Part shown: positions 5,926 through 28,134 of the stretch, piece by piece
Position numbering within the stretch: position 1 is the stretch's first letter
Layout: every line of letters starts with the position of its first letter
DNA from: Collinsella sp. An2
GTDB taxonomy: Bacteria > Actinomycetota > Coriobacteriia > Coriobacteriales > Coriobacteriaceae
Assembly: GCF_002160065.1 (NCBI RefSeq)
Contig: NZ_NFJW01000001.1
Location: 1-64,000 of the forward strand
Direction of reading: 5' to 3'
Length of the DNA stretch: 64,000 nt
Notes under the pieces: generated by a model
Told to the model about the DNA's origin: nothing
What the model saw: only the letters and a program-made list of their open reading frames with translations
Databases searched by the model: none
Program-made: the position numbers and the translations under genes

Positions 5926-6226
5926 GACTTTGACAAAAAGCGCGCCTAATCTTGCGCTGCTCCCCGATTTCCGATGCTAGGAGAAACTCGTTTCGTTTTT
6001 ATGCAGTTGTTTTCAGAAATTCCGAGTAGACCGCCTTCTCAGGCCCTTGAATCCTGGCCTTTTGTCGACGAAATCGGCCGTCTACTCGGGGATTCCCGAA
6101 CTAACTGCATAAAAACGAAACGAGTTTCTGAAATGCTTCTCGTAACCCACTGTTACTGGCGTCGAGAGCCACTCTTGAGCCCGTTCGCGTATACAGGGCG
6201 AAGCGCCTTCGCAGAAACAGGGCTAA
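5926..6226. other. gene-free region holding a long inverted repeat
   Basis: No gene is supported between niaR and the ferredoxin terminator. The region is dominated by the 148-base inverted-repeat element described at 5982-6129; outside it I see nothing specific. Confidence 0.7.
5982..6129. repeat. long inverted-repeat element, copy 1 (27-bp arms)
   Basis: Arms 5982-6008 and 6103-6129 are perfect 27-bp reverse complements. Exactly 13 bases inside each arm lies a second complementary pair, CCGAGTAGAC (6022-6031) with GTCTACTCGG (6080-6089). The 48-base apical region can form a third small stem (AGGCC 6041-6045 with GGCCT 6056-6060). The element sits between convergent genes niaR and the ferredoxin. 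The same architecture with different arm sequence occurs at 27869-28017. There is no long T-run, so it is not a simple terminator. Confidence 0.9.
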
Positions 6227-6254
6227 TTAAAAAGGGCTCCCCGAAGGGAGCCCC
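6227..6254 (-). terminator. rho-independent terminator of the ferredoxin gene
   Basis: On the minus strand GGGGCTCCC pairs with GGGAGCCC across a tiny loop and is followed by TTTTT. It lies about 25 bases downstream of the ferredoxin stop. Confidence 0.9.
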
Positions 6255-6277
6255 GAGCTTGCGATAGCGATGGACTA

Positions 6278-6463
6278 CTAGTCCTCGGCGATCTCGGTGA
6301 TCGCGCCGGCCGGGCAAGACTCCTGGCAAACGCCGCAGGCGATGCAAGAATCCTCGTCGACTACGGTCGCGACGTCCTGGACCTCGAGAACGCCCTGGGG
6401 GCAGTCGTCAACGCAGACGCCACAGGCGATGCACTCATCGGCATCGATAACGGGATGTGCCAT
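6278..6463 (-). CDS. 2[4Fe-4S] bacterial-type ferredoxin
   Basis: A 61-residue clostridial-type ferredoxin, a low-potential electron carrier in anaerobic metabolism. Two CxxCxxCxxxCP motifs are complete: CIACGVCVDDCP and CIACGVCQESCP. The protein is acidic and ends EIAED. The start at 6463 is supported by GAGGAGG on the minus strand just upstream. It forms its own transcription unit and ends at the strong terminator 6227-6254. Confidence 0.95.
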   Translation of the reverse strand: MAHPVIDADECIACGVCVDDCPQGVLEVQDVATVVDEDSCIACGVCQESCPAGAITEIAED

Positions 6464-6835
6464 AGTTTCCTCCTCTGTTCGTGCCCGATGCCGTAGGCGA
6501 TGTGACATCGAGTCGTGTGGCTTCAATATACCCCGAGACGACTTCAATGCAACCCCTTGCGCCCAGCTTTTCATACCGTTCGCCGAGTAAGCCACGGCTT
6601 ACTGCCTGCGGGTTTGCTGTCGGTGCGGGAACGCTGGAACAAGGCGCGCCCGCCAAACGAGGGGGTTCAAATGCCAGGTGAGATTACTTGCTTGTCCATC
6701 AAACAAAAAATCTTATATGAATTGACTTAGATTTTGTATATAAGTCGGCTCAGGGGGATATGATAGAGAGCGAACGAACAGAGACGTGCCGGGCACGAGC
6801 GAAAGGATGCCCGGCAACGAAGGAAGGGATTATCC
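6464..6835 (+). promoter_or_regulatory. dnaK upstream region and leader
   Basis: No gene is seen in this 372-base stretch. It holds a small hairpin (AGTAAGCC 6586-6593 with GGCTTACT 6596-6603), the heat-shock element at 6708-6740, and a leader hairpin (TGCCGGGCA 6787-6795 with TGCCCGGCA 6808-6816) just before the dnaK ribosome-binding site GGAAGGGA. A candidate promoter is TTGTCC (near 6693) and TATATG (near 6714), 16 bases apart. Confidence 0.55.
6708..6740 (+). promoter_or_regulatory. heat-shock element shared with clpB
   Basis: AAATCTTATAT, six bases, then ACTTAGATTTTGTATA. The same two blocks with the same 6-base gap lie upstream of clpB at 49336-49368 (28 of 33 bases identical). The dnaK copy continues to TAAG, giving the imperfect palindrome CTTAGAT-N5-ATATAAG. 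HspR is encoded in the same operon and normally binds inverted repeats at dnaK and clpB promoters, so this is a likely HspR operator, although it differs from the classical HAIR sequence. Confidence 0.6.
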
Positions 6836-8731
<1,896 letters not shown>

Positions 8732-8733
8732 TC

Positions 8734-9603
8734 ATGCCCGCCCGGAATGCTCGCACGGAGGCGGCCGCCGCTGCCGCCTCCGCTGACTCTGAGGAGAAGG
8801 ACGTGAAAATTCCCGTAGAGGCCGCCGACGAGGCAACGGACGCGGCCCAGACCAACGAAGACGTCAAGCCCGAGGCCGATGGTGCCCAGACGGTCGAGCA
8901 GGCCGAGAAGGAGCAGACCATGACCGAGGAGGAGATGGTCGAGGCGGCCATTCGCGCCGGCGAGGAAGCGGCCGACAACGACTTCAAGCTCAAGTGCGAG
9001 CAGGCGGAGCAGAAGCTCGCCGATGCCCAGCGTGAGCTAGCCGAGGCCAAGGAGGCCAAGGAGGCTGCCGAGAGCCGAGCGCACGATGCGGTCGACCGCA
9101 TGGCGCGACTGCAGGCGGATTGGGAGAACTTCCGCCGCCGCACCGCCCAGGAGCGCCTGGCCGAGCAGAGCCGTGCGACCGAGAAGCTCGTGACCGCGCT
9201 GCTGCCTGTCCTCGACGACATGGAGCGCGCTATCGACCATGCCCGCTCGCAGGAGATGGACGAGGCGTTCTCGCAGTTCGTCGATGGCGTCGAGGCGGTC
9301 CACACCAAGATGCTCGACGTGTTCTCGCACGAGGGCGTCGAGGCAATCGATCCCAAGGGCGAGCCGTTCAACCCGCTCGAGCACCAGGCCGTTGGTCGCG
9401 TCGAGGACGCCGACCAATACGACGAGACAGTGAACGACGTGTACCAGAAGGGGTACCGCATGGCAGACCGCGTGTTGCGCTCGGCTATGGTCACCGTCAC
9501 GTACGGCGGAGCAAAGCGACCGGCTGAAGACGCGGAGCCGAAGGATGCGGCGGAAGACGCCGACGCCTCGGCAGAGGACGCGCCCGAGGCGACGGAAGCG
9601 TAA
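8734..9603 (+). CDS. grpE: nucleotide exchange factor GrpE
   Basis: Promotes ADP release from DnaK. The protein has 289 residues, long for the family. The first 85 residues are an acidic, low-complexity extension, then a coiled coil (residues about 85-130, FKLKCEQAEQKLADAQRELAE), then the conserved core ARLQADWENFRRRTAQE, LLPVLDDMERAI, FNPLEHQAV and VYQKGYRMADRVLRSAMVTV. An acidic tail ends the protein. It starts two bases after the dnaK stop with only a weak AGGA upstream, implying translational coupling. A strong terminator follows. Confidence 0.96.
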   Translation: MPARNARTEAAAAAASADSEEKDVKIPVEAADEATDAAQTNEDVKPEADGAQTVEQAEKEQTMTEEEMVEAAIRAGEEAADNDFKLKCEQAEQKLADAQRELAEAKEAKEAAESRAHDAVDRMARLQADWENFRRRTAQERLAEQSRATEKLVTALLPVLDDMERAIDHARSQEMDEAFSQFVDGVEAVHTKMLDVFSHEGVEAIDPKGEPFNPLEHQAVGRVEDADQYDETVNDVYQKGYRMADRVLRSAMVTVTYGGAKRPAEDAEPKDAAEDADASAEDAPEATEA

Positions 9604-9610
9604 GACGACG

Positions 9611-9641
9611 GGGCTCCGGGCCAATCTCCGGAGCCCTTTTT
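9611..9641 (+). terminator. terminator after grpE
   Basis: GGGCTCCGG (9611-9619) pairs with CCGGAGCCC (9628-9636), followed by TTTTT. It separates dnaK-grpE from dnaJ-hspR, so dnaJ may depend on read-through or on a promoter in the 224-base gap 9642-9865. Confidence 0.9.
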
Positions 9642-9865
9642 GCGTGTGTCCCTTTTGCCTGGTCGGACGTCATCCAAGGCAGGTGGGGCGCACGGCTGAA
9701 CGCGACAGCGCGCAAAGCTTGGCGATGCGGGGCCACGAGGCCCGGCATGAGCGACGCGGCGGCCGGCCGTAAAGAGCGGCTGGCAGGCGCGCCCGCGCGT
9801 TGTCGAGAGTAGGACCTAAGAGCTGCCGCCTGTGAGGGCGGCGACAGCATGAAAGGAGGCAGGCG

Positions 9866-10828
9866 ATGGCACAGACGAAGAACTTCTACGATGTCCTTGG
9901 CGTGAAGCGCGACGCCTCCGACAAAGAGATCAAGACCGCCTTCCGCAAGTTGGCGCAGAAGTATCACCCCGATGCGGGCGGCGATGAACAAAAGTTCAAG
10001 GAGATCAGCGAGGCGTATGAGACGCTCTCCGATCCCAAGAAGCGCAAGGAATACGACCAGCTGCTCATGTTTGGCGGTATGCCCGGAGCCGGCGGTCCCG
10101 GCGGGGCATACACCTATAGCGGCGGCGCTGGCGGCCCGGGCGGCTGGAGCGACATCTTCAGCAGCATCTTCAACGGAGACGGAGCGTTTGGCTCCGACTG
10201 GGCTAGCGGCTTTGGCGGTATGGGTGGCGCGGGCCGCGCGGCCAACCGTCCGCGCAAGGGCGGCGATCTGTCGCTGACCGTGGATGTGTCGGCCGAGGAC
10301 GCGTTCCGCGGCGTCACGCATAAGGTGACCTACCGCATCCCCTCGACGGGGGAGCAGCAGACCATTACCGTCTCGGTTCCTGCGGGAGCCGTCGACGGCG
10401 GCAAGCTGCGCTACAAACGTCGCGGCGAGTACGGCCAGAACGGCGGCGAGCGCGGCGACTTGGTGGTGACCACGCACGTGGCCGAGCACCCGCTCTTCAA
10501 GCGTAAGGGTGCCGACGTGCAGATGACGCTGCCCATTTCGGTGTACGAGGCAGCGCTGGGATGCCAGGTCGATGTGCCCACGCCGGGCGGTGCGACGGTG
10601 CGCCTGAAGGTGCCGGCGGGTACGCAGAGCGGAAAGACCTTCCGCTTCAAGGATCTGGGCGCTCCCGACGTGAAGCGCCGCGGTCGCACCGGTGCACTGC
10701 TGGTGACGGTGGACGTGCGCGTTCCTACGCAGCTTTCGACGGCGGAACGCGATGCGTTCGAGCGGTTGCGTGCCGCCGATACGCGTGACTATCGGCGCGA
10801 TGTCGACCGATATCGCGCAAGGGTATAG
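9866..10828 (+). CDS. dnaJ: DnaJ-family co-chaperone lacking the zinc finger (CbpA/type II Hsp40)
   Basis: Stimulates DnaK ATPase and delivers substrates. The J domain fills residues 1-70 with the HPD motif in [10 protein letters not shown] Gly/Phe-rich linker (about 75-130) follows, then two beta-sandwich substrate-binding domains. The zinc-finger CxxCxGxG repeats of classical DnaJ are absent, so this is a type II (DnaJ2/CbpA-like) protein, as is common as the second J protein in actinobacteria. 320 residues; start at 9866 with AAAGGAGGC upstream. The next gene is hspR. Confidence 0.95.
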
Positions 10829-10898
10829 ACGATGAACGGGCCCTGGGCGGTGCTGCCGTCCGGGGCTTGGGGTATGCCAGGAAGGTTGGTGAAGAAGA

Positions 10899-11312
10899 AT
10901 GGGTCAGTCTGATCGGGACAAACCGCTGTATATGATCAGCGTCGCGGCCGAGCTCACGGGCATGCATCCGCAGACGTTGCGTGTGTACGAGTCGAAGGGG
11001 TTGGTGAACCCGAAGCGCTCGGGCGGCAACACGCGCCTGTATTCGCGTGCCGACATCGAACGCCTTGAGCTGATCAACCAGCTGACAGATGAGGGCATCA
11101 ACCTGGCTGGCGTGGTGCGTATCCTGGACATGAAGGAGCGCGCCGAGAAGCGTGAGGCCGAGATGGAGCAGCTGCGCTCTCGCGTCCGCGAGCTCGAGGA
11201 TGAGGTTCACGAGCTCAAGGTCCAGAAGAAAATCACCGCGCTTGTTCCGCGCGGCGGCTCGGCCGACCCCGAACAGGTGCTCAAAGGGCTTCTGGGAGGC
11301 GGCGGCCTCTAA
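10899..11312 (+). CDS. hspR: heat shock repressor HspR (MerR family)
   Basis: A 137-residue MerR-type regulator. The winged helix-turn-helix occupies residues 10-75 (YMISVAAELTGMHPQTLRVYESKGLVNPKRSGGNTRLYS), followed by a long coiled coil (about 85-120). It represses the dnaK operon and clpB and works with DnaK as co-repressor in related actinobacteria. Its position as last gene of dnaK-grpE-dnaJ-hspR is the classic arrangement. The likely targets are the elements at 6708-6740 and 49336-49368. Confidence 0.94.
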   Translation: MGQSDRDKPLYMISVAAELTGMHPQTLRVYESKGLVNPKRSGGNTRLYSRADIERLELINQLTDEGINLAGVVRILDMKERAEKREAEMEQLRSRVRELEDEVHELKVQKKITALVPRGGSADPEQVLKGLLGGGGL

Positions 11313-11664
11313 CGCGCCGATTCGCAGGGCCTGCCGGCGACGCTTTGCCGCTGGAAGCTGACTCGCGGGGCCTCGCAAAGGCAAATCGCGGGGGTCATAT
11401 ATATCGAAACATAGACCAGCTACTAGATTTGTCTAAGTTAAGCCGCAAAAGCGGCCGATTTCTTAGTCAATTCCAGTAGCTGGACTTATTTTTATTGCTG
11501 TTCGTGGCGCACTGCCTTGGGAGGTATCAGCCGCGCACTGCCTTAGGAGCTGACTGCCACGCGCGTCCTCGCCAAACGCATTTGGGAGATGCTTGCTACA
11601 CGTTCCCTCGTCAAACGCGTGCGGAGCAGTCGTCGTTGGCAAGCAGGTTCTCTGTTGCTGGCGC
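11313..11664. other. gene-free region between convergent hspR and gntR
   Basis: Contains the stem-loop at 11411-11495 and two short direct repeats: GCGCACTGCCTT near 11507 and again near 11533, and a TCGYCAAACGC block near 11567 and 11612. No coding frame is convincing. Confidence 0.5.
11411..11495 (+). terminator. composite stem-loop after hspR, probable terminator
   Basis: Nested inverted repeats: CCAGCTACT (11416-11424) with AGTAGCTGG (11475-11483), CTAAG (11433-11437) with CTTAG (11462-11466), and a central GCCGC-AAAA-GCGGC hairpin (11442-11455). The stem is followed by ACTTATTTTTATT. It is longer than an ordinary terminator but placed correctly to end the heat-shock operon. Confidence 0.6.
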
Positions 11665-12420
11665 TTACACCACGTTGACGTCGCGGAGCTCGGCGCGGTC
11701 GCCCACATTGCGCGAGATGGAATATTCGAACGCAGTGCCGTCGTCGAAAAATCCGATCTGCTCCATCTCGAGAAGCGGGCCGCCAACCTCGGTCTCCAGG
11801 CGCTCGGCTTCTTCCTCTGTGGCGCTAACGGCGCGGATGATGCGGTGGAAGCTCGAGATCTTGTAGCCCAGCGTGTCCTGGATATAGCTGTAGACGGACT
11901 TGTAGAGCTGGCTTTTCTTAAGACCCGGAATGAGGTCGAGCGGCATGTAGGTGTACTCGATAACGATGGGTGTCCCGTTAAGACAACGCACGCGGCAATG
12001 GTGATAGGCGAAATCCTCGGGCTGAATATTGAGGTGCCGCGCGACCTTTTCGGGTGGATTCACAATGGAGAAGTCATAGACCACCGACGTGATCTCGCCG
12101 TCGCCCTGATGCTCGATGGTAAAGCCGCGGGCGCGGTCGGAGCGGTTGAATGCGAAGGAGCCCGAGCCGCCTACAAGGTAGGTGCCGGAGCCGCGTGGGT
12201 CTGAGATGTCCTGTGTGCTTTTCACATAGGTGCCCGATCCGCGCCGGCTGGCGATAAGGCCTTGCTCGATGAGCAGGTCGAAGGCGCGCTTCACCGTGAT
12301 CTTGCTCACGTCGTAAATCTGGCACAGCTCCACAACGGTAGGGAGCTTGTCGTTGGGCTTCAGGGAGCCGTCCTCGATGCTGTGCTGGATATCTGCTGCG
12401 ATCGCCTGGTACTTTAACAT
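11665..12420 (-). CDS. GntR family regulator (HutC/UTRA type) of the beta-glucoside locus
   Basis: 251 residues. The N-terminal winged helix-turn-helix (about 1-70; KLPTVVELCQIYDVSKITVKRAFDLLIEQGLIASRRGSGTYV) is followed by a UTRA ligand-binding domain (about 90-245; YHHCRVRCLNGTPIVIEYTYMPLDLIPGL...), as in regulators that sense phosphorylated sugars. It is divergent from the GH1 gene, with a 400-base shared region containing inverted repeats. Its likely ligand is a beta-glucoside 6-phosphate, inferred from the neighbouring PTS genes. It probably represses the cel operon. Confidence 0.9.
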   Translation of the reverse strand: MLKYQAIAADIQHSIEDGSLKPNDKLPTVVELCQIYDVSKITVKRAFDLLIEQGLIASRRGSGTYVKSTQDISDPRGSGTYLVGGSGSFAFNRSDRARGFTIEHQGDGEITSVVYDFSIVNPPEKVARHLNIQPEDFAYHHCRVRCLNGTPIVIEYTYMPLDLIPGLKKSQLYKSVYSYIQDTLGYKISSFHRIIRAVSATEEEAERLETEVGGPLLEMEQIGFFDDGTAFEYSISRNVGDRAELRDVNVV

Positions 12421-12822
12421 GAGGACACCTCTCTCTGCTCGATGTTCGTCGCACGCGGCCGACTGGTATCAAGAAACGCCAAGGCGTCTCGTGTGCCAAC
12501 TCGGAGCCTCCCGCAAGCGGTAGGTTTTCGCGGGTGAGCGGTTTCATGAAGTTCGTGATCTCTGGCCTCTGTAGCGCCCCAGCAGCCTAAAGCGAACGCG
12601 TTAAAACGCGCGTTGTCGCAGGTATAACGCCTGCATCCCCGTTGCGTAATCCATTATCCCCCAAAGTATGCCGATATATTTTCAAAAAGGCATACTCTAA
12701 AAGAAAATTAGAGCGCTATACTTTAGCTAAAAGCGCGGTACGCATATAAAATAATCGCGCTTATATATACGACGGAACGTGCGAAGAGCCGCACGAGCCG
12801 GATTATGGAACCAGGAGGCGCT
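12421..12822. promoter_or_regulatory. divergent control region of gntR and the cel operon
   Basis: AT-rich compared with its surroundings. Inverted repeats are GTATGCC (12666-12672) with GGCATAC (12689-12695), 16 bases apart, and CTCTAA (12695-12700) with TTAGAG (12708-12713). A TATACT that could serve as -10 lies at 12717-12722. The GTATGCC palindrome is the best operator candidate for the GntR regulator. No gene is seen. Confidence 0.5.
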
Positions 12823-14229
12823 ATGGCAGAGTTGACCTTGCCCAAGGACTTCTTCTTCGGGGCGGCAATGTCTGGCCCGCAGACAGAGGGCGGCTGGAAT
12901 GTTGGCGGCAAGCTCGAGAACCTGTGGGACACATGGTCCATCGAGGACATCGATGCGTTCTACAACCGCGTCGGCTCGTATGTGGGCAACAACTTCATGC
13001 GCCTCTATAAAGAAGACCTCGCCCTGCTCAAGAGCCTTGGCATGAACAACTACCGCACCTCCATTCAGTGGAGCCGCCTGCTCGACCAGGACGGCAACAT
13101 CAACCCCGAGGGCGCGGCTTGGTACCACGAGCTTTTCCGCGCTTCCAAAGAAGCCGGCCTCGAGGTCTTCGTGAACCTTTACCACTTTGACATGCCCACC
13201 TACCTCTTCCGCCGCGGCGGCTGGGAGAATCGCGAGGTGTGCGAGGCGTATGCCAACTATGCCTACAAGGCGTTCTGCGAGTTCGGCAAAGAGGTTCGCT
13301 GCTGGTTCACCTTCAACGAGCCCATCGTCGAGCCCGAGAACCGCTACTGGCATCCCGTATGGTATCCGCAGCACCACAGCTTCCAGGAGGCCTGCACCAC
13401 CCAGTACAACATCTCGATTGCGCACGCGCTGGCCGTTGCGAAGTATCGCCAGGCCGTCTCCGAAGGCCGCATGCTGCCCAACGCGCGCATCGGCATGATC
13501 TGCAACTTCTCGCCCTCCTATACCAAAGACGATCCCACGCCGGCAGACCTCGAGGCCCTGCGCATGAACGACGGCCTTACCAACCGTTGGTGGCTTGACC
13601 TGGTAACCAAGGGTCATCTGCCGCAGGACGTCATCGACACCCTTACCAACGACCTGGGCATCGTGCTCCCCGTCCGTCCGTACGACGACGCCGTGCTCGC
13701 CGAGGGCGTGGTCGACTGGATCGGCTGCAACTACTACCAGCCGAGCCGCGTCCAGGCGCCAAGCACGACCCACGACGAGTGGGGCAACCCGCTGTTTGCC
13801 GAGCCCTACATTTGGCCCGAGCGCGTCATGAACGAGTCCCGTGGCTGGGAGATCTACCCCAAGGGCATCTACGACTTCGGCATGAAGTGCAAGAAGGAGT
13901 ACCCCGAGCTTGAGTGGTACGTCTCCGAGAACGGCATCGGCATCGAGCGCGAGTACCTCAACAAGGATCCCGAGACCCAGCAGGTCCAGGACGACTACCG
14001 CGTCGACTTCGTGCGTCAGCACCTCGAGTGGATCGCGCGCGCCATCGACGACGGCGCCAAATGCGTGGGCTACCACTACTGGGGCATGATCGACAACTGG
14101 TCCTGGGCGAACGCATTCAAGAACCGCTACGGCTTCGTGGAGGTCGACCTCATGGAGAACTACGAACGTCGGCCCAAGAAGTCGGCCGCGTGGCTCAAGG
14201 AGGTCGCGACCTCGCACGTGGTCAAGTAG
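12823..14229 (+). CDS. GH1 family 6-phospho-beta-glucosidase
   Basis: 468-residue retaining glycosidase. The acid/base glutamate is in FTFNEP and the nucleophile in WYVSENGIGI. The N-terminus LPKDFFFGAAMSGPQTEGGW and the C-terminal KNRYGFVEVD are GH1 signatures. Being in a PTS operon suggests action on 6-phosphorylated beta-glucosides in the cytoplasm. The start at 12823 follows AGGAGGCGCT; an in-frame ATG at 12805 lacks a site. First gene of the cel operon (GH1, IIC, IIB, IIA, GH4). Confidence 0.93.
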   Translation: MAELTLPKDFFFGAAMSGPQTEGGWNVGGKLENLWDTWSIEDIDAFYNRVGSYVGNNFMRLYKEDLALLKSLGMNNYRTSIQWSRLLDQDGNINPEGAAWYHELFRASKEAGLEVFVNLYHFDMPTYLFRRGGWENREVCEAYANYAYKAFCEFGKEVRCWFTFNEPIVEPENRYWHPVWYPQHHSFQEACTTQYNISIAHALAVAKYRQAVSEGRMLPNARIGMICNFSPSYTKDDPTPADLEALRMNDGLTNRWWLDLVTKGHLPQDVIDTLTNDLGIVLPVRPYDDAVLAEGVVDWIGCNYYQPSRVQAPSTTHDEWGNPLFAEPYIWPERVMNESRGWEIYPKGIYDFGMKCKKEYPELEWYVSENGIGIEREYLNKDPETQQVQDDYRVDFVRQHLEWIARAIDDGAKCVGYHYWGMIDNWSWANAFKNRYGFVEVDLMENYERRPKKSAAWLKEVATSHVVK

Positions 14230-14424
14230 CCGGTTTGTTACCTGGCCCTTTTAGGGATGGCCGGCAGCTTGTGGGGAGCCGCTGGCCGACTGTCTGGCCT
14301 CGCCTTCGCCTATTGCCCGCAGCGCCGCGGGCGGCAGGTGAGGGCGGCGCCGGGATAGCAAGGGGAGCGTCGCTGAAGGGGGGCGCTTCTGAGGTAGGCA
14401 TGTTTTACGTTAGGAGTGGAAAAC

Positions 14425-19382: not shown

Positions 19383-19400
19383 GGGACCTCCCTGGAGGCG

Positions 19401-20367: not shown

Positions 20368-20907
20368 ATGAAAAAGAACCTTGGTAGCTTGCTCGCTCTG
20401 TATCCCACCCCGGCGACCCTCGTGGGCGCGATGGTGGACGGTAAGCCCAACTGGATGCAGGTTGCCCACGTGGGCATCATCGGACACGACCGCATCATGA
20501 TCAGCTGCATGTCGAATCACTACACCAACAAGGGCATCCGCGAGACGGGCGTGGTGTCGGTAAGCCTGTGCGACCGCGCGATGCTGCCCGAGCTTGACCG
20601 CGCCGGCGCAGGCTCTGGTGCCAAGACGGACAAGTCGGAGCTGCTTGCCTGGACGCCTGCCGAGAACGGCGCGCCCGTGCCCGAGAAGGCGCCGCTCACG
20701 CTTGTCTGCCATGTGGTGGATACCTATGAGACCGAGAACTTTGACAACTTCGTGCTTGCGATTGACGCCACGCTCGTGGAGGAGGACAAGCTCGACGATG
20801 CCGGCAAGCCCGACTACGGCAAGATCTCTCCGGTGCTCTTTGAGTTCCCCACGTACTCGTATTACGCCACGGGCGAGAAGATCGGCAAGTGCCTGAGCTT
20901 CAAGTAA
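20368..20907 (+). CDS. flavin reductase-like protein (FMN-binding split barrel)
   Basis: 179 residues. The pattern LALYPTPATLVGAMVDGKPNWMQVAHVGIIGHDRIMISC followed by HYTNKGIRETGVVSVSL matches the flavin reductase/FMN-binding split-barrel family, which reduces free flavin or acts as a small flavoprotein. The start at 20368 is fixed by GGGAGGA. First gene of a same-strand series of flavin proteins reaching to 28467. The electron donor and acceptor cannot be read from sequence. Confidence 0.85.
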   Translation: MKKNLGSLLALYPTPATLVGAMVDGKPNWMQVAHVGIIGHDRIMISCMSNHYTNKGIRETGVVSVSLCDRAMLPELDRAGAGSGAKTDKSELLAWTPAENGAPVPEKAPLTLVCHVVDTYETENFDNFVLAIDATLVEEDKLDDAGKPDYGKISPVLFEFPTYSYYATGEKIGKCLSFK

Positions 20908-20990
20908 CAGGCGCTGTCGGAAACGTGGAGGCTGCTGCTTGGGCGCAGGGCAATGCGGTGAGAAGGCTTTGAAGCATAGGAGGTTGCATC

Positions 20991-21461
20991 ATGGCTGGTA
21001 AGACATTAGTTGCATATTTCTCGGCGAGTGGGACCACGGCGCGCGTGGCACAGCAGGTAGCCGGCGCCGTCGGGGCCGACACGTACGAGATCGTCGCGGA
21101 TCCGCGCTACACGGCCGCCGATCTCGATTGGCAGAACAAGCGCAGCCGCAGTTCGCTTGAGATGAACGACGAGTCGTGCCGCCCTGCCATCGCGGGCGCG
21201 CTTCCCGACATGTCGGGCTACGATGTCGTGCTTTTGGGATTCCCCATCTGGTGGTACAAGGAGCCGCGCATCGTCGACACCTTCATTGAGGGCATCGACC
21301 TTTCTGGCAAGCGCGTGGTTCCGTTTGCGACGTCGGGCGGCTCGGGCATCGGTGGCGCCGAGTCGCATATGAAGGGGCTGTGCCCGGACGCCCTATGGCA
21401 GTCCGGACGCCTGCTCAACGGCGGAGATGCCGCCGCGTGGGCGCGTTCGGTCTGCGCGTAG
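20991..21461 (+). CDS. flavodoxin, cytoplasmic
   Basis: 156 residues without signal peptide. The phosphate loop is VAYFSASGTTARVAQQV, and the flavin-stacking region is LLGFPIWWYKEPRIVDTFIEG. The C-terminal GGSGIGGAESHMKG is typical of the flavodoxin_4 group. It probably binds FMN and carries single electrons. Closely related domains occur in the exported proteins at 22683 and 23461, so this may be the cytoplasmic partner. Start at 20991 after AGGAGG. Confidence 0.9.
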   Translation: MAGKTLVAYFSASGTTARVAQQVAGAVGADTYEIVADPRYTAADLDWQNKRSRSSLEMNDESCRPAIAGALPDMSGYDVVLLGFPIWWYKEPRIVDTFIEGIDLSGKRVVPFATSGGSGIGGAESHMKGLCPDALWQSGRLLNGGDAAAWARSVCA

Positions 21462-21478
21462 CGAGAGAGGATGGGCCC

Positions 21479-22549
21479 ATGGGTTCGATGACACGCAAAG
21501 CGTTCCTGGCGAGCGTGGGCGTCCTTGCCGCCGCAGGCGTTGCCGGCTGTGCCGGCGGCGCATCTGGGGAAGGCGAGCCTGCGGCAGGGTCTGTTTCCGG
21601 GCGGGCCGAAGACTCTGCTCCAGGGACGGCCCCAGCTGGGTCTGCGCCGACAGACGGCTCCGTCTCAGGCGACGGTGGGGCGTCCCGGGTCTTTTTCACG
21701 CGGGACATCTCGCCTGCTGGCCTGCAGGCGGCCTTCGACGCACTTGGCGTCGAGCCGGCCGGCAACGTGGCAGTGAAGCTCTCCACAGGCGAGCCGGGTG
21801 GGAACAACTTCCTCTCGACCGACCTCATCGGCGACTTCGTGCGCAGCCTGGGCGCCACGATCGTGGAGTGCAATACGGCCTACGGCGGCGCGCGCTCCTC
21901 GACCGAGAGCCACCTGCAGGCGGCGGCCGACCATGGCTTTACCGCGATCGCGGACGTAGACATCATGGACGCGGAGGGCTCGATATCGCTTCCCGTCACG
22001 GGCGGCGCACATCTGACCGAGGACCTCGTGGGCGCACATCTGGCCAACTACGACTACGTGGTGTCGCTCGCGCACTTCAAGGGGCATGCGATGGGCGGCT
22101 TCGGCGGCGCCATCAAGAACTGCTCTATCGGCATCGCCGCGCGCGAGGGCAAGATGCTCATCCACTCCGCCGGCACCTCGGCCACGAGCTGGGGAAACCC
22201 TGCGCAGGACGATTTTCTAGAGTCTATGGCCGAGGCGGCGAAGGCCGTGAGCGACCACTTTGGCGGCGTGGGCGGCAGCATGTGCTACGTGAACGTCATG
22301 AATCGACTCTCGGTGGACTGCGACTGCGACTCCCACCCGGCCGAGCCCGAGATGGCAGACATCGGAATCCTGGCGTCGCTCGATCCCGTGGCGCTCGACC
22401 GTGCCTGCGTGGACCTGGTCTACGCCGCACCCGACGGCGCGGCGCTCATCGAGCGCATGGAGAGCCGCCATGGCGCACACACACTCGAGCATGCCGAGGC
22501 GATTGGGCTGGGAAGCCAGAGCTACACGCTGGTCGACCTCGACGCGTGA
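21479..22549 (+). CDS. DUF362 domain lipoprotein
   Basis: 356 residues. The N-terminus (MTRKAFLASVGVLAAAGVAGCAGG) is a signal peptide with lipobox VAGC, then a Ser/Gly/Ala-rich linker of about 45 residues. The DUF362 domain follows (NVAVKLSTGEPGGNNFL, YVVSLAHFKGHAMGGFGGAIKNCSIGIAAREGK, DIGILASLDPVALDRACVDLVY). DUF362 proteins often bind iron-sulfur clusters or are linked to redox enzymes, but this copy has no ferredoxin motif. It starts 17 bases after the flavodoxin. Exported to the outer face of the membrane. Confidence 0.85.
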   Translation: MGSMTRKAFLASVGVLAAAGVAGCAGGASGEGEPAAGSVSGRAEDSAPGTAPAGSAPTDGSVSGDGGASRVFFTRDISPAGLQAAFDALGVEPAGNVAVKLSTGEPGGNNFLSTDLIGDFVRSLGATIVECNTAYGGARSSTESHLQAAADHGFTAIADVDIMDAEGSISLPVTGGAHLTEDLVGAHLANYDYVVSLAHFKGHAMGGFGGAIKNCSIGIAAREGKMLIHSAGTSATSWGNPAQDDFLESMAEAAKAVSDHFGGVGGSMCYVNVMNRLSVDCDCDSHPAEPEMADIGILASLDPVALDRACVDLVYAAPDGAALIERMESRHGAHTLEHAEAIGLGSQSYTLVDLDA

Positions 22550-22682
22550 GTGCCGCAGCCGTGTGGCTCTGCTCGGCCGTAAAGGCGATGCTTGTCCTGT
22601 TGAGCGTTCGCGCCAGGGCGGGCGTGTAGTGGCAGGTGAGAGCGACCTGGTGGATGGACCTATTGGTTGGAGGATGAAGACC

Positions 22683-23375
22683 ATGACACGTATGACCGAT
22701 CTTGAGATCTCGCGCCGACGCCTGCTCAAGGACGTGGCGGCGCTCATCGCTGTGGTGCCGTTTGCCGGTTCGCTGGCTGCGTGCGGGCAGGAGCCTGCCG
22801 ACGACTCGGCAAACGACTCGGCAAACGATGCGGCTTCTGGAAGCGCGGCGGAGCCCGAGGCCCCGGAGACGTCCGATGACGCTGCCGCGCCGGAGGCTGC
22901 TGCCGGCTCCACGTTGGTGGCGTACTTCTCGGCAACCGGCAACACCGAGGGCGTCGCGCAGGCGATTGCCGAGCGGCTGGGTGCCGACGTGTTTGCCATC
23001 GAGGCAGCCGATCCCTACACGGCTGAGGATCTCAACTACAACGACGACGCGAGCCGCACAAGCCAGGAGCGCACCGATGCGCATCCCGAGCTTGCGCAGG
23101 TGACGCCCGACGGTTGGGAGGGATACCAGACGGTGCTTCTGGGCTATCCCATCTGGTGGGGCGAGGCGGCATGGCCGCTGCGCACCTTCGCTGCGGGCAA
23201 CGATTTTGCCGGCAAGACCGTGGTGCCTTTCTGCACGAGCGCGTCTTCGGGAATCGGTCGCAGCGGCGACGGTCTGGCCGAACTCGCCGGCTCCGGCGAT
23301 TGGCGCGAGGGCGAGCGATTCGCGGCCGGCGCGGGCGACGACGCTGCCGCCTGGGCCGAGGGCCTGGGACTGTAA
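22683..23375 (+). CDS. Tat-exported flavodoxin lipoprotein
   Basis: 230 residues. The N-terminus has a twin-arginine motif (SRRRLLK), a hydrophobic stretch and lipobox LAAC, then an acidic Asp/Ser/Ala linker (about 30-75), then a flavodoxin_4 domain: LVAYFSATGNTEGVAQAIAE, DLNYNDDASRTSQER, VLLGYPIWWGEAAWPLRTF, SGIGRSGDGLAEL. Tat export fits a protein that must bind FMN before secretion. The start at 22683 is preferred (GGAGG 9 bases upstream) over ATG at 22674. Flavodoxins are normally cytoplasmic, so an anchored extracytoplasmic copy is unusual. Confidence 0.88.
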   Translation: MTRMTDLEISRRRLLKDVAALIAVVPFAGSLAACGQEPADDSANDSANDAASGSAAEPEAPETSDDAAAPEAAAGSTLVAYFSATGNTEGVAQAIAERLGADVFAIEAADPYTAEDLNYNDDASRTSQERTDAHPELAQVTPDGWEGYQTVLLGYPIWWGEAAWPLRTFAAGNDFAGKTVVPFCTSASSGIGRSGDGLAELAGSGDWREGERFAAGAGDDAAAWAEGLGL

Positions 23376-23460
23376 GACGTTTATCGGTAGATGATGCGGC
23401 GGGGCGGTCTTGGATCCGCGCCGCCGCGATGCTAACGACGCTGTGAGGAAGGAGGAGTGT

Positions 23461-24930
23461 GTGGACGATAGGGGTATGACGCTCACCAGGCGTTCGCTTT
23501 TGGGCGTCGCTGGTGCGGCTGCAGCATCGTCGCTGGCTGCCTGTTCATGGACGCCGCGTTCGGAGTCTGCTGAGGGGCCGTCCAACGCAGTCGACGCCAA
23601 CGTCGAGGCGGAGCAGCAGGTCTCCGTAGACGACGGCTTCGTTGCGGTGACGGGCGGTACGTTTCTTATGGGAAGCCCTGAGGATGAACCATGGCGCAGC
23701 GCGGACGAGACGCAGCACGAGGTCGCAGTCTCGAGCTTTTTCATCGACCCATATGAGGTGACGCAGGCCGACTACGCTCGTCTCATGGGTGATAATCCCA
23801 GCGTCAACCAGGGGGATACCCTGCCCGTCGAGAACGTCACGTGGCTTCAGGCCGTCGAATACTGCAACGCGCGCTCCGCGGAGGCCGGCCTTACGCCCGC
23901 CTATGAGATTGACGGCGATGCGGTTTCGTGGGATCGCGCGGCCGATGGGTATCGTCTTCCCACAGAGGCCGAGTGGGAGTACGCATGCCGCGCGGGCACG
24001 ACGACTCCCTTCAACACCGAGACCTCTATCAGCCCGGACACCGAGGCAAACTACTATGGGACCTATCCCTACGAGATCGAAGACAACTACTTCGATTGCG
24101 GGGCGCTTCAGACGCAGCCCGGCATCTACCGTCAAACAGAGGTCGAGTCTGGAACGTTTGCCCCCAACGCATGGGGTCTCTATGACATGCACGGCAACGT
24201 GGCCGAGTGGGTGTGGGACCTCTATGGCGCCTACGACGAGGAGGCGTCGGCAGATCCCGTTGGCCCCGAGGAGGGAGCGCTGCGCGTGAACCGCGGCGGA
24301 GGCTGGAACGACTTCGCCAAGAACCTGCGAAGCGCCTACCGGGCGTCCCTCGCACCCGATGCCTCGAGTCCAAGCGTGGGATTCCGCGTGGCCCGAGGTG
24401 CGCTTGCGGGAGCGTCTCTGGTGGGCGGAGCCGCCGGCGCTCAGGGTGCGGCTGGCGGCGATGGCATCATCGTTTTCTTTAGCTGGAGCGGCAACACGCG
24501 CGACATCGCCGGCCAGATTGCCGAGCGTATAGGATTCGAGGCTGTTGAGCTTGAGCTTGTCGAACCGTATTCGACCGACTACTCTACGGTGCTCGACCAG
24601 GCGCAGGCGGATCAGGCTGCCCAGGCGCGTCCCGAGCTTGCCACGCATATCGACATGGATCGCTTTGGCACGGTGCTATTGGGCTATCCCAACTGGTGGG
24701 CGTCCATTCCCATGCCCATTGCGTCCTTCCTGGAGTCGGCTGACTTCTCGGGCAAGCTCATATGCCCCTTCTGCAGCCACGGCGGCGGGAGGCTGGGCCA
24801 GAGCGTGACGGCTATTTCCAAACTCGTGCCGACAGCGCGCGTGGGCGAGGCGCTCTCCGTGCACTATGGCGGCGACTCCGAGCTGCCCGGCCAGATTGAT
24901 GCCTGGCTTGCGGCGAACGGGGTGGCGTGA
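23461..24930 (+). CDS. Tat lipoprotein: FGE-sulfatase-like domain fused to flavodoxin
   Basis: 489 residues. Signal with twin arginine (LTRRSLLG) and lipobox LAAC; linker to about residue 55; then a formylglycine-generating-enzyme-like domain (GTFLMGSPEDEPWRSADETQHEVAVSSF, RLPTEAEWEYACRAG, GLYDMHGNVAEWVWDLYG, RVNRGGGWNDFAKNLRSAYR, VGFRVARG). From about residue 335 a flavodoxin domain follows (IIVFFSWSGNTRDIAGQIAE, VLLGYPNWWASIPMPI). True FGE enzymes have two cysteines in the segment after RGGSW; here it reads NDFAKNLRSAYRA with none, so formylglycine formation is unlikely. GTG start at 23461 is set by GGAAGGAGGA. The stop overlaps the next gene. Confidence 0.88.
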   Translation: MDDRGMTLTRRSLLGVAGAAAASSLAACSWTPRSESAEGPSNAVDANVEAEQQVSVDDGFVAVTGGTFLMGSPEDEPWRSADETQHEVAVSSFFIDPYEVTQADYARLMGDNPSVNQGDTLPVENVTWLQAVEYCNARSAEAGLTPAYEIDGDAVSWDRAADGYRLPTEAEWEYACRAGTTTPFNTETSISPDTEANYYGTYPYEIEDNYFDCGALQTQPGIYRQTEVESGTFAPNAWGLYDMHGNVAEWVWDLYGAYDEEASADPVGPEEGALRVNRGGGWNDFAKNLRSAYRASLAPDASSPSVGFRVARGALAGASLVGGAAGAQGAAGGDGIIVFFSWSGNTRDIAGQIAERIGFEAVELELVEPYSTDYSTVLDQAQADQAAQARPELATHIDMDRFGTVLLGYPNWWASIPMPIASFLESADFSGKLICPFCSHGGGRLGQSVTAISKLVPTARVGEALSVHYGGDSELPGQIDAWLAANGVA

Positions 24931-25655
24931 TGGCGGCGTCTGACAAAGGGGCGACGCGCCTGCCTGGGCAGCACGCACGGCAGCGCGGGCGCGCGGCACG
25001 CCGTGCGGTCGACATTGCCCTTGCCGCCGGGTTCTCGCTGGTGATGGCCACGGCGCTTGTGGAGGACGTTGCCCATGAGTGGATCGGCATCGGCGTGTTT
25101 CTGCTGGTGGTGACCCATCAGGTGCTCAACCGTTCTTGGTGGCGTACGCTTCTCCGCGGTCGCTGGTCTTTGCGCCGCGTGGTTTCATCTGCGGTGGATC
25201 TCTGCCTTGTTGTGGAGGTGCTCGCAATGCTGGCAAGCGCCTTGGTCGTCTCGGCGCATGCGTTCTCATGGTTGCCGGTCATTCCGGGTGCGGGCTGGGC
25301 GCGCCCGGCACATCTGCTCGGTTCGTACTGGGGTTATGTGCTTGTTGGGCTGCACACGGGCTTTCATGTGCAGCCGATGTTCGCACGGGCGTGGCGTCGT
25401 GGCAGATGCGTGCGTCTTGCGTTGCTGGCATGCTGCGCGGTCGTCCTTCTTGCCGGGGTGTGGTCGTTTGTGACGCTCGACGTGGGCGCCTATCTCACCT
25501 ATTCGTCGCCCTTCGTGTTCGTAGATTTCGACACGCCGTTTGCGCTGCGTTGGGTGCAGTGGCTCGCCGTGGGCGCGCTCTATGCGCTTGCGGGCTCGGC
25601 GCTGTGGGCGCTTATGGGCGGCGCTGCCGGGCGAAGACGGCAATCCCGTGCATGA
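24930..25655 (+). CDS. DUF4405 integral membrane protein
   Basis: 241 residues with five or six hydrophobic segments. Histidines lie at helix ends (AHEWIGIGVFLLVVTHQVLN, LVGLHTGFHVQPMF), the pattern of DUF4405 proteins, which resemble membrane b-type cytochromes. It could pass electrons from the quinone pool or cytoplasm to the extracytoplasmic flavodoxins; that is inference from position and histidines. Its ATG overlaps the preceding TGA stop (GTG at 24927 is an alternative), so it is translationally coupled to the fusion lipoprotein. Confidence 0.8.
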   Translation: MAASDKGATRLPGQHARQRGRAARRAVDIALAAGFSLVMATALVEDVAHEWIGIGVFLLVVTHQVLNRSWWRTLLRGRWSLRRVVSSAVDLCLVVEVLAMLASALVVSAHAFSWLPVIPGAGWARPAHLLGSYWGYVLVGLHTGFHVQPMFARAWRRGRCVRLALLACCAVVLLAGVWSFVTLDVGAYLTYSSPFVFVDFDTPFALRWVQWLAVGALYALAGSALWALMGGAAGRRRQSRA

Positions 25656-25690
25656 CATTCAGGATGTTTAGCAGAAAGAAGGGGCTTTGG

Positions 25691-26236
25691 ATGACGGCTC
25701 GAAACGTAGTGGTTCTTTCGTCGAGTCCGCGTAAGGACGGCAACTCCGACATGCTGTGCCATGAGTTTGCCGCAGCGGCTCGTGAGGCGGGAGCCGCGGT
25801 CGACGAGGTCGCACTGCGAGATCTCAAGATCGCGCCGTGTCGGGCATGCTATGGCTGCTGGAACTCGCAGCGCTGCGTGCTGGGTGACGATGTGGCGCCG
25901 CTGCTTGAAAAGATCGCTGCAGCCGACGTCCTGTGTGTGGCGACGCCCGTGTACTTCGGGCTGCCGTGTGGCCAGCTCAAGGTCATGATCGACCGGCTGC
26001 TGCCGCTCTGGCAGGGCCTTGGCGGCAAGGATGTCTACCTTATTTTGACCGGCCACGATGGTCGCGCGGGCCTCGCGCACGCCGCAGATGACCTGCGCCT
26101 GGTGTTCGAGAACCTCGGTGACGCCGTGTGCGGAATCGTGTGGGGCGAGCACGTGTGGCAAAAGGGCGAGGTCGTGGGCACGGCGGCCGTGGCTGACGCG
26201 CGGCAGCTGGGCACACGGGCGGCACATGGGGCCTAG
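25691..26236 (+). CDS. NADPH-dependent FMN reductase / flavodoxin-fold protein
   Basis: 181 residues, cytoplasmic. The N-terminal VVLSSSPRKDGNSDMLCHEF is the FMN phosphate loop of the iron-sulfur flavoprotein/NQO-type family, followed by a cysteine cluster CRACYGCWNSQRC that in related proteins binds a 4Fe-4S cluster or forms disulfides. VATPVYFGLPCGQLKVMIDR is the conserved dimer/flavin region. A quinone- or flavin-reducing role is likely. Start at 25691 after AAGAAGGGG. Confidence 0.85.
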   Translation: MTARNVVVLSSSPRKDGNSDMLCHEFAAAAREAGAAVDEVALRDLKIAPCRACYGCWNSQRCVLGDDVAPLLEKIAAADVLCVATPVYFGLPCGQLKVMIDRLLPLWQGLGGKDVYLILTGHDGRAGLAHAADDLRLVFENLGDAVCGIVWGEHVWQKGEVVGTAAVADARQLGTRAAHGA

Positions 26237-26311
26237 CGCGTTGTAGGGTTGGGCACAATCTCGGTTGACCCAAGCGCGCGATGGAGCGCGATAAGGATGG
26301 AGGAGCGCACG

Positions 26312-27163
26312 ATGGATACAATTACCCTGAACAACGGAATCGAGATGCCGCTCGAGGGACTGGGCGTCTTTCAGGTGACGGACGAGGGCGAGTGCGAGCG
26401 CGCGGTGCGCACGGCGCTCGATCTTGGCTACCGGCTTGTGGATACGGCCGCTTGCTACGGCAACGAGCGCGCCGTGGGCAGGGCGCTCAAGGCGAGCGGG
26501 CTGCCGCGCGAGGAGGTCTTTCTGACCTCGAAGGTGTGGATCCAGGACGCAGGCTACGAGCGCACCATGGCGTCGTTTGACCGTACGCTCGAAAACCTGG
26601 GGACCGATTACCTGGACCTCTATCTCATCCACATGCCCTACGGCGACTATCACGGCAGCTGGCGCGCCATGGAGGAGCTGCTTCGGGCGGGTCGCGTGCG
26701 CGCCATCGGCGTGTGCAACTTCTTGCCCGACCGTCTGGCCGACCTCATCCTTGCACACCAGGTGGTGCCGGCAGTGAACCAGATCGAGCTGCATCCGTTT
26801 TGCCAGCAGCGGCGGCTCCGCCAGCTCATGGCTCGCTACGACATCGCGCCCATGGCATGGGCTCCCTTCGCCGAGGGCCAGCATGGGCTCTTCTCCAACC
26901 CCACGCTTACGGCCATCGGCGCGGCGCACAACAAGACGGCGGCCCAGGTGGTGCTGCGGTGGCTTCGCCAGGAGGGCATCATCGCTATCCCCAAGTCGGT
27001 ACACGAAGAGCGCATTTGCGAGAACTTTGACATTGACGACTTCGAGCTCACGCCGGCAGATCTTGCGCAGGTCGATGCGATGGACGAGGGCGTCCCGACG
27101 ATTCTGGACGTGCCGGACGTGTGCGAGGTGTACCGCCTGCACGGCATTACGTTCGAGCAGTAG
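26312..27163 (+). CDS. aldo/keto reductase (AKR5-like)
   Basis: 283-residue NADPH-dependent TIM-barrel oxidoreductase. All four catalytic residues are visible: Asp and Tyr in RLVDTAACYGNE, Lys in LTSKVWI, His in YLIHMPY. The C-terminal NADPH site is IAIPKSVHEERICENFDIDDFEL. Similar to 2,5-diketo-D-gluconate reductase-type enzymes, though the true substrate is unknown. The start at 26312 follows GGATGGAGGA. Confidence 0.93.
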   Translation: MDTITLNNGIEMPLEGLGVFQVTDEGECERAVRTALDLGYRLVDTAACYGNERAVGRALKASGLPREEVFLTSKVWIQDAGYERTMASFDRTLENLGTDYLDLYLIHMPYGDYHGSWRAMEELLRAGRVRAIGVCNFLPDRLADLILAHQVVPAVNQIELHPFCQQRRLRQLMARYDIAPMAWAPFAEGQHGLFSNPTLTAIGAAHNKTAAQVVLRWLRQEGIIAIPKSVHEERICENFDIDDFELTPADLAQVDAMDEGVPTILDVPDVCEVYRLHGITFEQ

Positions 27164-27251
27164 TACGTGGTGGGTTTGAGGCCGGCAGTCCGTCTGGGTT
27201 GACGCTGCGGGGCCCGCTCCGACCACATTCGAGTGAGGCAGGGAGATAACC

Positions 27252-27791
27252 ATGAACATCGTGATTTTGCAGGGAAGTCCCAACCACAACGGCTCGACGG
27301 CGATGCTCGTCGAGGAGTTCGCTCGCGGCGCCCGCGAGGCGGGACATGCGGTTGAGCGCATCGACGTGTGTGCAGAGGACGTGAACCCGTGCCACGGCTG
27401 CGTGGCCTGTGGCTACGGTGCACGGCCGTGTGTGCAGCGCGACGGCATGGCGCGCATTCTCGACCGGGTGCTTGCGGCCGACATGCTCGTGCTGGCCACG
27501 CCGCTCTATTACTACGGCATGACCGCCCAGCTCAAAGCGGTTATCGACCGATTCTGCTCCGAGAACTCCGCGATTACAGCGAAGCGTCTGCGCTCGGCGC
27601 TCATCACGGTGGCGTGGAATGCCGACGACTGGACTTTTGAGGCGCTTGTGGCGCACTACCGCACGCTCGTGCGCTATCTTGACTTCAAGGATGCCGGCAT
27701 GGTGCTTGGCTACGGCTGCGGCACGCCCGGCATGACCAAGGCGTCGGGCGCCATGCTTAAGGCCTACGAGCTGGGACTGTCGCTGGAATAG
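27252..27791 (+). CDS. flavodoxin-family NAD(P)H-dependent oxidoreductase
   Basis: 179 residues. ILQGSPNHNGSTAMLVEEF is the FMN loop, followed by the cysteine cluster CHGCVACGYGARPCVQRDGM and VLATPLYYYGMTAQLKAVIDRF. A paralogue of the protein at 25691, probably a soluble flavin-dependent reductase of quinones or similar compounds. Start at 27252 after GGGAG. The long inverted repeat 27869-28017 lies just downstream. Confidence 0.88.
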   Translation: MNIVILQGSPNHNGSTAMLVEEFARGAREAGHAVERIDVCAEDVNPCHGCVACGYGARPCVQRDGMARILDRVLAADMLVLATPLYYYGMTAQLKAVIDRFCSENSAITAKRLRSALITVAWNADDWTFEALVAHYRTLVRYLDFKDAGMVLGYGCGTPGMTKASGAMLKAYELGLSLE

Positions 27792-28134
27792 GTGGTGGCT
27801 GCTCCAGGCGCTGGCATGGGTTTGGCCCCTGGGAAAACGCTGATTACAGCCTCCGAGCGCCCCCTCGTGCACGCTCGCTTCGGAAAAGGGCGTCCGAAAC
27901 GCGATCGGCCGAGTAGACCAGGATACCCGACGGACAAAGCCCCTGGTAGATGGCCCGGGGCTTAAGGGCCTACTCGGCGATTCAGGAAAGGGACGCCCTT
28001 TTCCGAAGCGAGCGTGCTTTGAGGTCATCCGCGAAGGCTCATATTCAGCGTTTCCCTGGGGCTCGTGGCAAAGACGATGTATCACGCGCCGCCTGCGGCA
28101 AGGTCGTGGCGGCACACAACAGAGAGGAACGATC
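27792..28134. other. gene-free region holding inverted-repeat copy 2
   Basis: Between the flavodoxin-family gene and the small monooxygenase gene; it contains the element at 27869-28017 and the ribosome-binding site of the next gene. No other feature is seen. Confidence 0.6.
27869..28017. repeat. long inverted-repeat element, copy 2 (27-bp arms)
   Basis: Arms 27869-27895 and 27991-28017 are perfect 27-bp reverse complements but unrelated in sequence to copy 1. Inner stem CCGAGTAGAC (27909-27918) faces GCCTACTCGG (27968-27977), each exactly 13 bases from its arm, as in copy 1. The apical part has its own stem, AAGCCCC (27937-27943) with GGGGCTT (27957-27963). Total 149 bases against 148 in copy 1. 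Here it lies between same-direction genes. Confidence 0.9.

Follow-up and report, generated by a model that had tools for sequence, protein, structure and literature searches.

Palindromic elements with family-specific arms in Collinsella and its relatives, and a linked nuclease-like gene

The first 64,000 nucleotides of contig NZ_NFJW01000001.1 of Collinsella sp. An2 (the whole of this stretch is called the window) carry two intergenic palindromic elements, elements 1 and 2. They probably belong to a dispersed palindromic repeat, mobile or formerly mobile, whose arms are the recognition sequences of a dedicated nuclease-like partner protein. All families of the element have in common its geometry, an inner stem and a ACAAAACCGCAGGT motif at the centre; the arms are split into families, several of which are found in one genome. 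The gene encoding the partner is linked to elements, the arms that flank it match arms dispersed in the same genome, and arms and protein diverge together.

Association of the elements with a nuclease-like gene

Two copies of the arm family of element 1 (family A) flank an open reading frame (ORF) of 353 amino acids at G000:C20 in the host genome (G000). Two copies of another arm family flank an ORF of 363 amino acids in genome G023, 41% identical to the host ORF. A profile was built from these two discovery proteins and used to survey 65 Coriobacteriaceae genomes (E ≤ 1e-6). The partner protein was found in 64 of them; G059, the genome without the protein, is also without the element, and G031 has protein matches and no element.

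Elements beside partner genes were detected with a covariance model of the element (R1). An R1 element lies beside 19 of the 30 top protein loci (E ≤ 0.01; the two discovery loci are included), beside 10 of 17 further loci (E ≤ 0.1; L360, which repeats L296, and L356, the gene-less G059 stretch, were left out, and L355, with a weak match approximately 600 bp off, was counted as having no element) and beside 11 of 20 hand-picked loci of distant homologues (E ≤ 0.1; the matches at L381, at L382 and on one side of L378 are weak). In total, an element was found at 40 of 67 partner loci, on both sides at 13 of the 40. At 31 Y1-transposase loci of the same genomes (E ≤ 1), no R1 element was found. 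The chance of an element lying within 400 bp of a gene is 3.4% in G044 and 5.0% in G023; among the partner genes listed, this is the case for 3 of 3 in G044 and 4 of 5 in G023 (4 and 2 weaker matches, respectively, are unlisted). Outside the 67 loci, no R1 element was found at 10 host-genome loci of remote homologues (which represent fewer genes) or beside two plasmid-borne homologue fragments.

The flanking arms correspond to dispersed arms. Ten loci were compared. At 9 of them, arms that differ from the flanking arm by no more than 4 of 18 positions occur in the same genome (in G000 and G061 the flanking copies were themselves part of the comparison, and 28 and 6 others match too). At the tenth locus (G023), a full reading of the G023 copies gave one further match to the flanking arm. 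Outside the genome of origin, matches lie mainly in close relatives; the arm at L269 also has matches in G001, G002 and one G061 copy. Each of three listed genes of G044 lies beside its own arm family; with the flanking copies counted, these families have 14, 14 and 4 members (clusters divided by hand). Two dispersed arm families of G002 correspond to two different genes. Among 24 gene-arm pairs, the 10 protein pairs with at least 47% identity have arms differing at a mean of 4.6 of 18 positions vs 8.04 when shuffled (p = 5e-5); without the two protein pairs above 80% identity, the mean is 5.25 with the same p. Since unlike arms occur in one genome and alike arms beside alike proteins across genomes, the arms track the protein lineage more than the species.

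The partner resembles DUF559 (PF04480) and REase_MTES_1575 (PF18741) proteins, i.e. nuclease-like proteins of the PD-(D/E)XK type, as judged from weak Pfam matches and from the pattern of its C-terminal half. MTES_1575 is matched by 15 of 18 members (E ≤ 1; best 5.5e-6) and DUF559 by 10 of 18 (E ≤ 1; best 1.9e-5). It differs from both families by its linkage to a repeat and by its N-terminal half, in which approximately 200 amino acids have no family match. Residues invariant in the 18 members are E207, D252, E267-x-Q269-G, H274, D283 and R286; they fit the DUF559/MTES_1575 pattern, E..D..ExxG...H..D..R. The acidic active-site pattern is present; its third position is Q in the 18 members and varies among N, Q, H, K and E in distant relatives. 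No match was found in NCBIfam (two members) or PHROGs (three members), nor to Y1_Tnp or another known transposase. One weak homing-endonuclease match was found in PADLOC (E 0.016). Among solved structures, the closest chain is 3hrl, 'Endonuclease-Like Protein' (E = 1). The annotation of the gene in two Collinsella plasmid records is 'hypothetical protein'. Recognition of a DNA hairpin by a nuclease, one of the roles proposed for elements 1 and 2 in an earlier reading of the window (the sequence-only reading), is close to what this neighbouring gene suggests.

Three partner-protein matches were found in plasmid records, all from Collinsella, and none in phage records. In viral contigs, the inner-stem and A-arm patterns gave 0 matches, and the protein search gave one locus (L308) and none with another query. 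L308 (IMGVR_UViG_3300018479_000265) encodes a 31%-identical homologue with an R1 element beside it and a large serine recombinase gene adjacent; this contig is a possible mobile carrier. The circular 1,785-bp NZ_OY725722.1 was considered as an excision circle and rejected: it is an IS21 fragment joined to a truncated homologue.

Copies, arm families and spread

The 2.54-Mb host genome was searched for the arms of element 1 (family A) and element 2 (family B) with up to 3 mismatches, up to 4 being allowed in the pairing step. There are 60 matches to A and 44 to B, which form 30 and 22 inverted pairs. The remaining A match (L090) pairs with an arm that is damaged in its outer part. Every A or B arm match of the host assembly has a partner: these arms occur solely as element pairs. 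Their spacing is 94 or 95 bp in family A (105 bp in four copies and L090) and 93-96 bp in family B. The longer A elements (L030, L034, L042, L090 and L092; +11 bp) have an extra CACTTTA..TAAAGTG-like hairpin, and comparable long forms are found in G023.

The sequence-only reading had described elements 1 and 2 as a family of fixed geometry and not as copied transposon ends. Dozens of copies rather than these two alone are present in the host genome, and the fixed geometry is borne out by the A and B copy sets. The second part is not supported: within a family, the arms are copied almost letter for letter. Arms that are unlike between families and nevertheless pair were also correctly recognised. 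Two-sided changes were found at 18 of 18 modelled arm pairs, 93.3% of the cells being paired vs 34-43% when partners were slid by 1-3 columns, and both arms changed jointly at one orthologous locus (see below). Much of this covariation marks different families, inside each of which the arm sequence is nearly fixed. In an alignment of 30 hand-chosen copies (13 A, 9 B, 8 from other genomes), the inner stem and the central CGCAGGT motif are the best-kept parts. Arms and centre stay fixed while spacers decay.

The two arms of one copy tend to be alike in some families. In family A, mismatches in 23 positions average 1.27 between the two arms of a copy vs 1.43 between arms of different copies; for the inner 18 positions the means are 0.63 within a copy vs 0.85 shuffled (p = 0.02). 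Arms are clearly more alike within than between copies in B, G044c and G023iii; the difference is not significant in G044b (p = 0.09), and G044a and G023i show none. In G023 family i, an identical left/right difference (AT vs GC) is found in 12 of 14 copies.

Flanks are unrelated among most copies. An outer unit with ends GGAAACGCTGAWTA, whole or in part, is common to approximately 14 of the 22 B copies, element 2 included, and partial flanks are common to approximately 10 A copies (both by eye); these flank-sharing sets look like secondary amplifications. The outer unit resembles a miniature inverted-repeat transposable element (MITE), has frequent CTAG-like flanks, carries the B element and was amplified with it. 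Among A copies with shared flanks, the interior has one orientation in L001, L003, L008, L085 and L087 and the opposite one in L004, L025, L032, L041 and L046 (by eye; only one flank is shared in L008 and L046); the segment between the arms must therefore have been inverted. No inverted B copy was seen by eye within the shared outer unit. One B element (L013:1466-1604) lies approximately 150 bp from the RNase P RNA gene (L013:953-1313).

The 65 Coriobacteriaceae genomes were also surveyed with R1 (E ≤ 0.01; matches on both strands counted; up to 52 candidates per genome scored). Matches were found in 63 of the 65, in 5 of 6 genera. A scan for the exact stem in genomes of 84,980 species gave nine stretches: eight are from Coriobacteriaceae or Collinsella, and the ninth, from Gemmatimonas, has no complementary arms. 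The two genomes read more fully have 43 (G044) and 47 (G023) unique matches and several arm families each, e.g. AAAATGTGTGGGGTT, CGGGCGAAAAGGTAACGA and TTTCGGTATTGGGAAGCT in G044; arm families are clade-specific. Elements are 127-131 or 139-141 bp long in G023 (one of 116) and 128-135 bp in G044 (plus 108 and 151). A helical-phase idea was not used, as the long forms may represent a few subfamilies. In G023, two elements 4.8 kb from each other (G023:C3:1701226 and 1705987; L253) are identical, as are their adjoining bases, and may belong to a larger duplicated unit; L253 has no Rfam match.

Proposed mechanism, turnover and competing explanations

We infer binding, catalysis and mobilisation by the partner, and the DNA form that is recognised, along the following lines. 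Each arm family would have, or have had, a cognate gene, often bordered by its own element copies. The arms would confer specificity and diverge together with the protein, the inner stem and centre remaining constant. The protein would bind the arms of a copy, in duplex form or in a hairpin or cruciform that the palindrome extrudes, and would nick or cut it. Through repair or copying, a different intergenic site could then gain a new copy or be overwritten by one. The elements would be non-autonomous and would depend on an enzyme of low copy number, as REPINs do on RAYT; the two enzymes are unrelated. To our knowledge, repeat families with a dedicated enzyme are known mainly from REPIN-RAYT.

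The elements and their partner look like a previously undescribed arrangement of a repeat plus a dedicated enzyme, and it is a real possibility that the system is a kind of its own. More tentatively, and with doubt prevailing slightly, this would be a new type of mobile repeat: a dedicated protein of PD-(D/E)XK type, whose family has no name in the searched libraries, would mobilise palindromic repeats with a constant core and exchangeable, co-evolving arms, and one core would have radiated within one bacterial family into many arm-enzyme pairs, several per genome, that replace each other in place. If so, this would be a second, independent pairing of a repeat with an enzyme, here an unrelated protein of nuclease fold, and such a life style would have evolved repeatedly; the DNA-recognition code of DUF559-like proteins could then be read from dozens of natural pairs of arm and protein. 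A large repeat class of common human gut bacteria (Collinsella and relatives) would also be accounted for. No literature on such repeats in Collinsella or Coriobacteriaceae, or linking DUF559 to transposition or palindromic repeats, was found by a search beyond whose coverage most subscription journals lie.

Turnover was observed at two loci. Near rpsL, an element is present in four genomes and absent from C. aerofaciens NZ_OY725717.1. At the other locus (the switch locus; L233:251-380 and L244:251-380, compared with L246, L227 and L230), G013, G040 and G018 carry arms TTTCGGAAGTATGCGGCA, and G039 and G017 carry arms of the TTTCGGAAGTGCGGKGAA type (TTTCGGAAGTGCGGGGAA or ..GCGGTGAA). Left and right arms are changed alike, the outer TTTCGGAAGT is kept and the interior differs too. 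Flanks align on both sides for L233 and mainly on one for L244. The partner gene of G039 (L293) is flanked by the same GCGGGGAA arm as the switched element. These alignments are most simply explained if one element replaced another; step-by-step compensatory change may also have produced them. The switch leaves our confidence in a partner-mobilised repeat unchanged, since copying over other sites is already allowed in the mechanism above. Seven queries were used in this present/absent search: L228 gave the absent site, L233 and L244 the switch locus, L237 and L232 the element only, L242 matched one flank only and L243 matched nothing. Alignments of two orthologous gene groups gave no usable element-sized gap.

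A number of results weigh against a mobile repeat with a dedicated partner. Direct evidence of movement is thin. At the empty site near rpsL, one junction is at the arm end and the other approximately 27 bp outside the arm, so the element may equally well have been lost as gained. Target-site duplications were sought in 20 A and 8 B copies, and none was consistent (a mixed set of 61 was left out of the result, its arm lengths being different); a 2-bp duplication signal in A (6 of 20 vs 1.05 expected) was dropped, several hundred offsets and lengths having been tested. The 67 partner loci are not independent, several being orthologues, and L309, L318, L328, L251, L263 and L383 were taken after coordinates had shown a nearby element. 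No element was found at 27 of the 67, including all members of an orthologue group of nine (L273-L280 and L282), and no cognate gene for family B was found in the host genome. Over all 276 pairs, the correlation between arms and proteins is weak (rho -0.11, p = 0.066) and the signal lies in close pairs, as expected if distant arms are saturated. Nuclease-family scores are below the Pfam cut-offs where these are shown (first member below), and AlphaFold2 on the L308 protein alone gave no confident fold (predicted local distance difference test, pLDDT, 36). Finally, orthologous copies persist in place, and in three sets of them 15% of arm columns vary vs 27-38% of flank columns (flank variation in one of the three is inflated by a rearranged genome).

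Because of this persistence and low arm variation, a host function also fits: protein and scattered sites would serve chromosome maintenance, DNA repair, regulation or defence, and copies would be kept by selection. The retention of copies at one locus in several species, the fixity of arms and centre and the presence of partner genes in nearly all genomes agree with such a role. It is nevertheless judged unlikely, as the arm families are clade-specific with several per genome, copies are absent or present at one locus and replaced at another, and genes are bordered by their own repeat, as expected of selfish repeat-enzyme pairs.

Under homing or gene conversion, the protein would cut elements, and during repair a different element, or the gene together with the elements beside it, would be copied into the break. 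Solitary elements would be both targets and products. The switch in place, where an element at a fixed site was replaced by one with other arms and interior and the outer part of the arms was kept, made this explanation somewhat less improbable, and the genes bordered on both sides, the PD-(D/E)XK likeness and the PADLOC match point the same way. The likeness to homing endonucleases lies in a nuclease-like gene with a long cognate site and a possible in-place replacement; the tens of gene-less copies differ, and no intron or intein context was seen. Homing accounts for replacement better than for the new sites of these copies, relative to which genes are few, and is likewise improbable as a full account.

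The elements could also be ordinary MITEs; the arms would then be the terminal inverted repeats of known insertion sequences of the DDE-transposase kind, and the nuclease-like gene would hitch-hike. Ends of Correia elements are approximately 26 bp long. Size, inverted-repeat ends, intergenic position and numbers in the tens are similar to those of Correia and other bacterial MITEs as described in the review PMC10969869. Inversion, inferred for the Collinsella elements, is reported for Correia. The B copies moreover sit inside a second, MITE-like unit. In contrast to MITEs, target-site duplications are not consistent, no DDE parent element was found in the host assembly, where A and B arms occur only as element pairs, the arms vary between families around a common core, and the arm-bordered gene matches no known transposase. 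A MITE origin is judged very unlikely.

A structured non-coding RNA or a source of double-stranded RNA has even less to recommend it and is regarded as highly improbable. The predicted fold is very stable: site 2 with its flanks has z values of -8.5 (+) and -9.5 (-), 0 of 200 shuffles being equally stable, and the apical hairpin that the sequence-only reading had placed there is present. Covariation between families and the two-arm change at a fixed locus would also suit an RNA. In alignment A1, the inner stem on the standard strand has 13 G.U vs 5 A.C (counts were made on alignments; the larger set is biased since cmsearch picks the better strand, and counts from alignment A2, which contains both strands and is fitted to the model, were set aside). 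The arms, however, show no excess of G.U over A.C (2 G.U vs 7 A.C in A1). No Rfam match was found on any element at eight loci (E ≤ 5), and gene orientation around A and B copies shows no clear preference (crude gene calls; loci of at least 2.5 kb). The near-exact copying of arms within families, the small difference in family A between arms of one copy and arms of different copies, the left/right difference common to most copies of G023 family i and the lack of a G.U excess in arms speak for arms that serve mainly as DNA recognition sequences, and less for a constraint on pairing in an RNA.

REPINs of the RAYT (Y1) transposases were rejected as an identity for the elements, and RAYT as driver of A and B, although RAYT-like genes are found in 52 of the 65 genomes and the architecture is similar: RAYT genes there have other repeats, typically GGGGACGG-like and bordering many of them, no R1 element was found at the 31 Y1 loci, and G023, with its 47 elements, has no RAYT match at E ≤ 1e-10. 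Scattered intergenic inverted doublets, several types per genome, hairpin geometry, a repeat type tied to a gene bordered by it, and ends more conserved than the middle are shared with REPIN-RAYT as described in PMC3116915 and PMC6006769. Hairpin-capable inverted doublets and a cognate gene bordered by its own repeat (family B excepted) were seen in the Collinsella elements. The partner here is DUF559/MTES_1575-like and not a HUH tyrosine transposase, and the inner stem and centre are common to all arm families; as the partner enzyme was tested and is different, the elements are not REPIN-RAYT members.

A RAYT-like Y1 gene of the host (G000:C3:36980-37732; L084/L128) is bordered by inverted repeats GCCATTGGGGACGGGTACAAATG, which resemble the GGGG[AT][CG]A[CG] repeats given for a TnpAY1 subclass in PMC6006769. 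At L016, L206-L209, L225 and L226 (G042, G048), element arms CCCGTTTAGGGGACGGTT and near variants resemble the GGGGACGG RAYT repeats; exchange between the two repeat systems is possible.

The two elements of the window

Features of the two elements are given in Table 1. The perfect 27-bp arms, the 13-base offsets and the inner CCGAGTAGAC stem of the sequence-only reading were confirmed at both sites by direct reading. Its statement that the arms lack similarity between copies needs correcting: compared in register, the arms are identical at 11 of 27 positions, of which 8 form CTCG.TTCG. That no mobilising gene is adjacent holds for both window copies and not for the genome, where another pair of the element 1 family flanks the nuclease-like gene.

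Table 1. Coordinates of the features of elements 1 and 2 in the window
Feature	Position	Strand	Remarks
Element 1, left 27-bp arm	5982..6008		Family A, AGAAACTCGTTTCGTTTTTATGCAGTT; perfect complement of 6103-6129
Element 1, left 13-nt spacer	6009..6021		Spacer length mostly conserved between families
Element 1, inner stem, 5' side	6022..6031		CCGAGTAGAC
Element 1, apical region and conserved centre	6032..6079	-	R1 best on - strand, 118.6 bits
Element 1, inner stem, 3' side	6080..6089		GTCTACTCGG
Element 1, right 13-nt spacer	6090..6102		
Element 1, right 27-bp arm	6103..6129		27/27 complementary to left arm
Outer unit around element 2	27832..28056 (ends approximate)		Short terminal inverted repeats GGAAACGCTGAWTA; by eye
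Element 2, left 27-bp arm	27869..27895		Family B, GCACGCTCGCTTCGGAAAAGGGCGTCC; perfect complement of 27991-28017
Element 2, left 13-nt spacer	27896..27908		
Element 2, inner stem, 5' side	27909..27918		CCGAGTAGAC
Element 2, apical region and conserved centre	27919..27967	+	Hairpin AAGCCCC..GGGGCTT; R1 107 bits on +
Element 2, inner stem, 3' side	27968..27977		GCCTACTCGG
Element 2, right 13-nt spacer	27978..27990		
Element 2, right 27-bp arm	27991..28017		27/27 complementary to left arm

R1 matches in the window (E ≤ 1) are sites 1 and 2 only, each on both strands. The inner stem of element 2, CCGAGTAGAC / GCCTACTCGG, has a single mismatch, A.C on the + strand and G.U on the other. The genes on either side of element 1 converge: a 3H/HTH-domain gene (end 5925) and a ferredoxin-like gene (6278-6595). 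Those around element 2 are both on the + strand: an FMN reductase/flavodoxin-like gene (end 27791) and an antibiotic-biosynthesis-monooxygenase-domain gene (start 28135).

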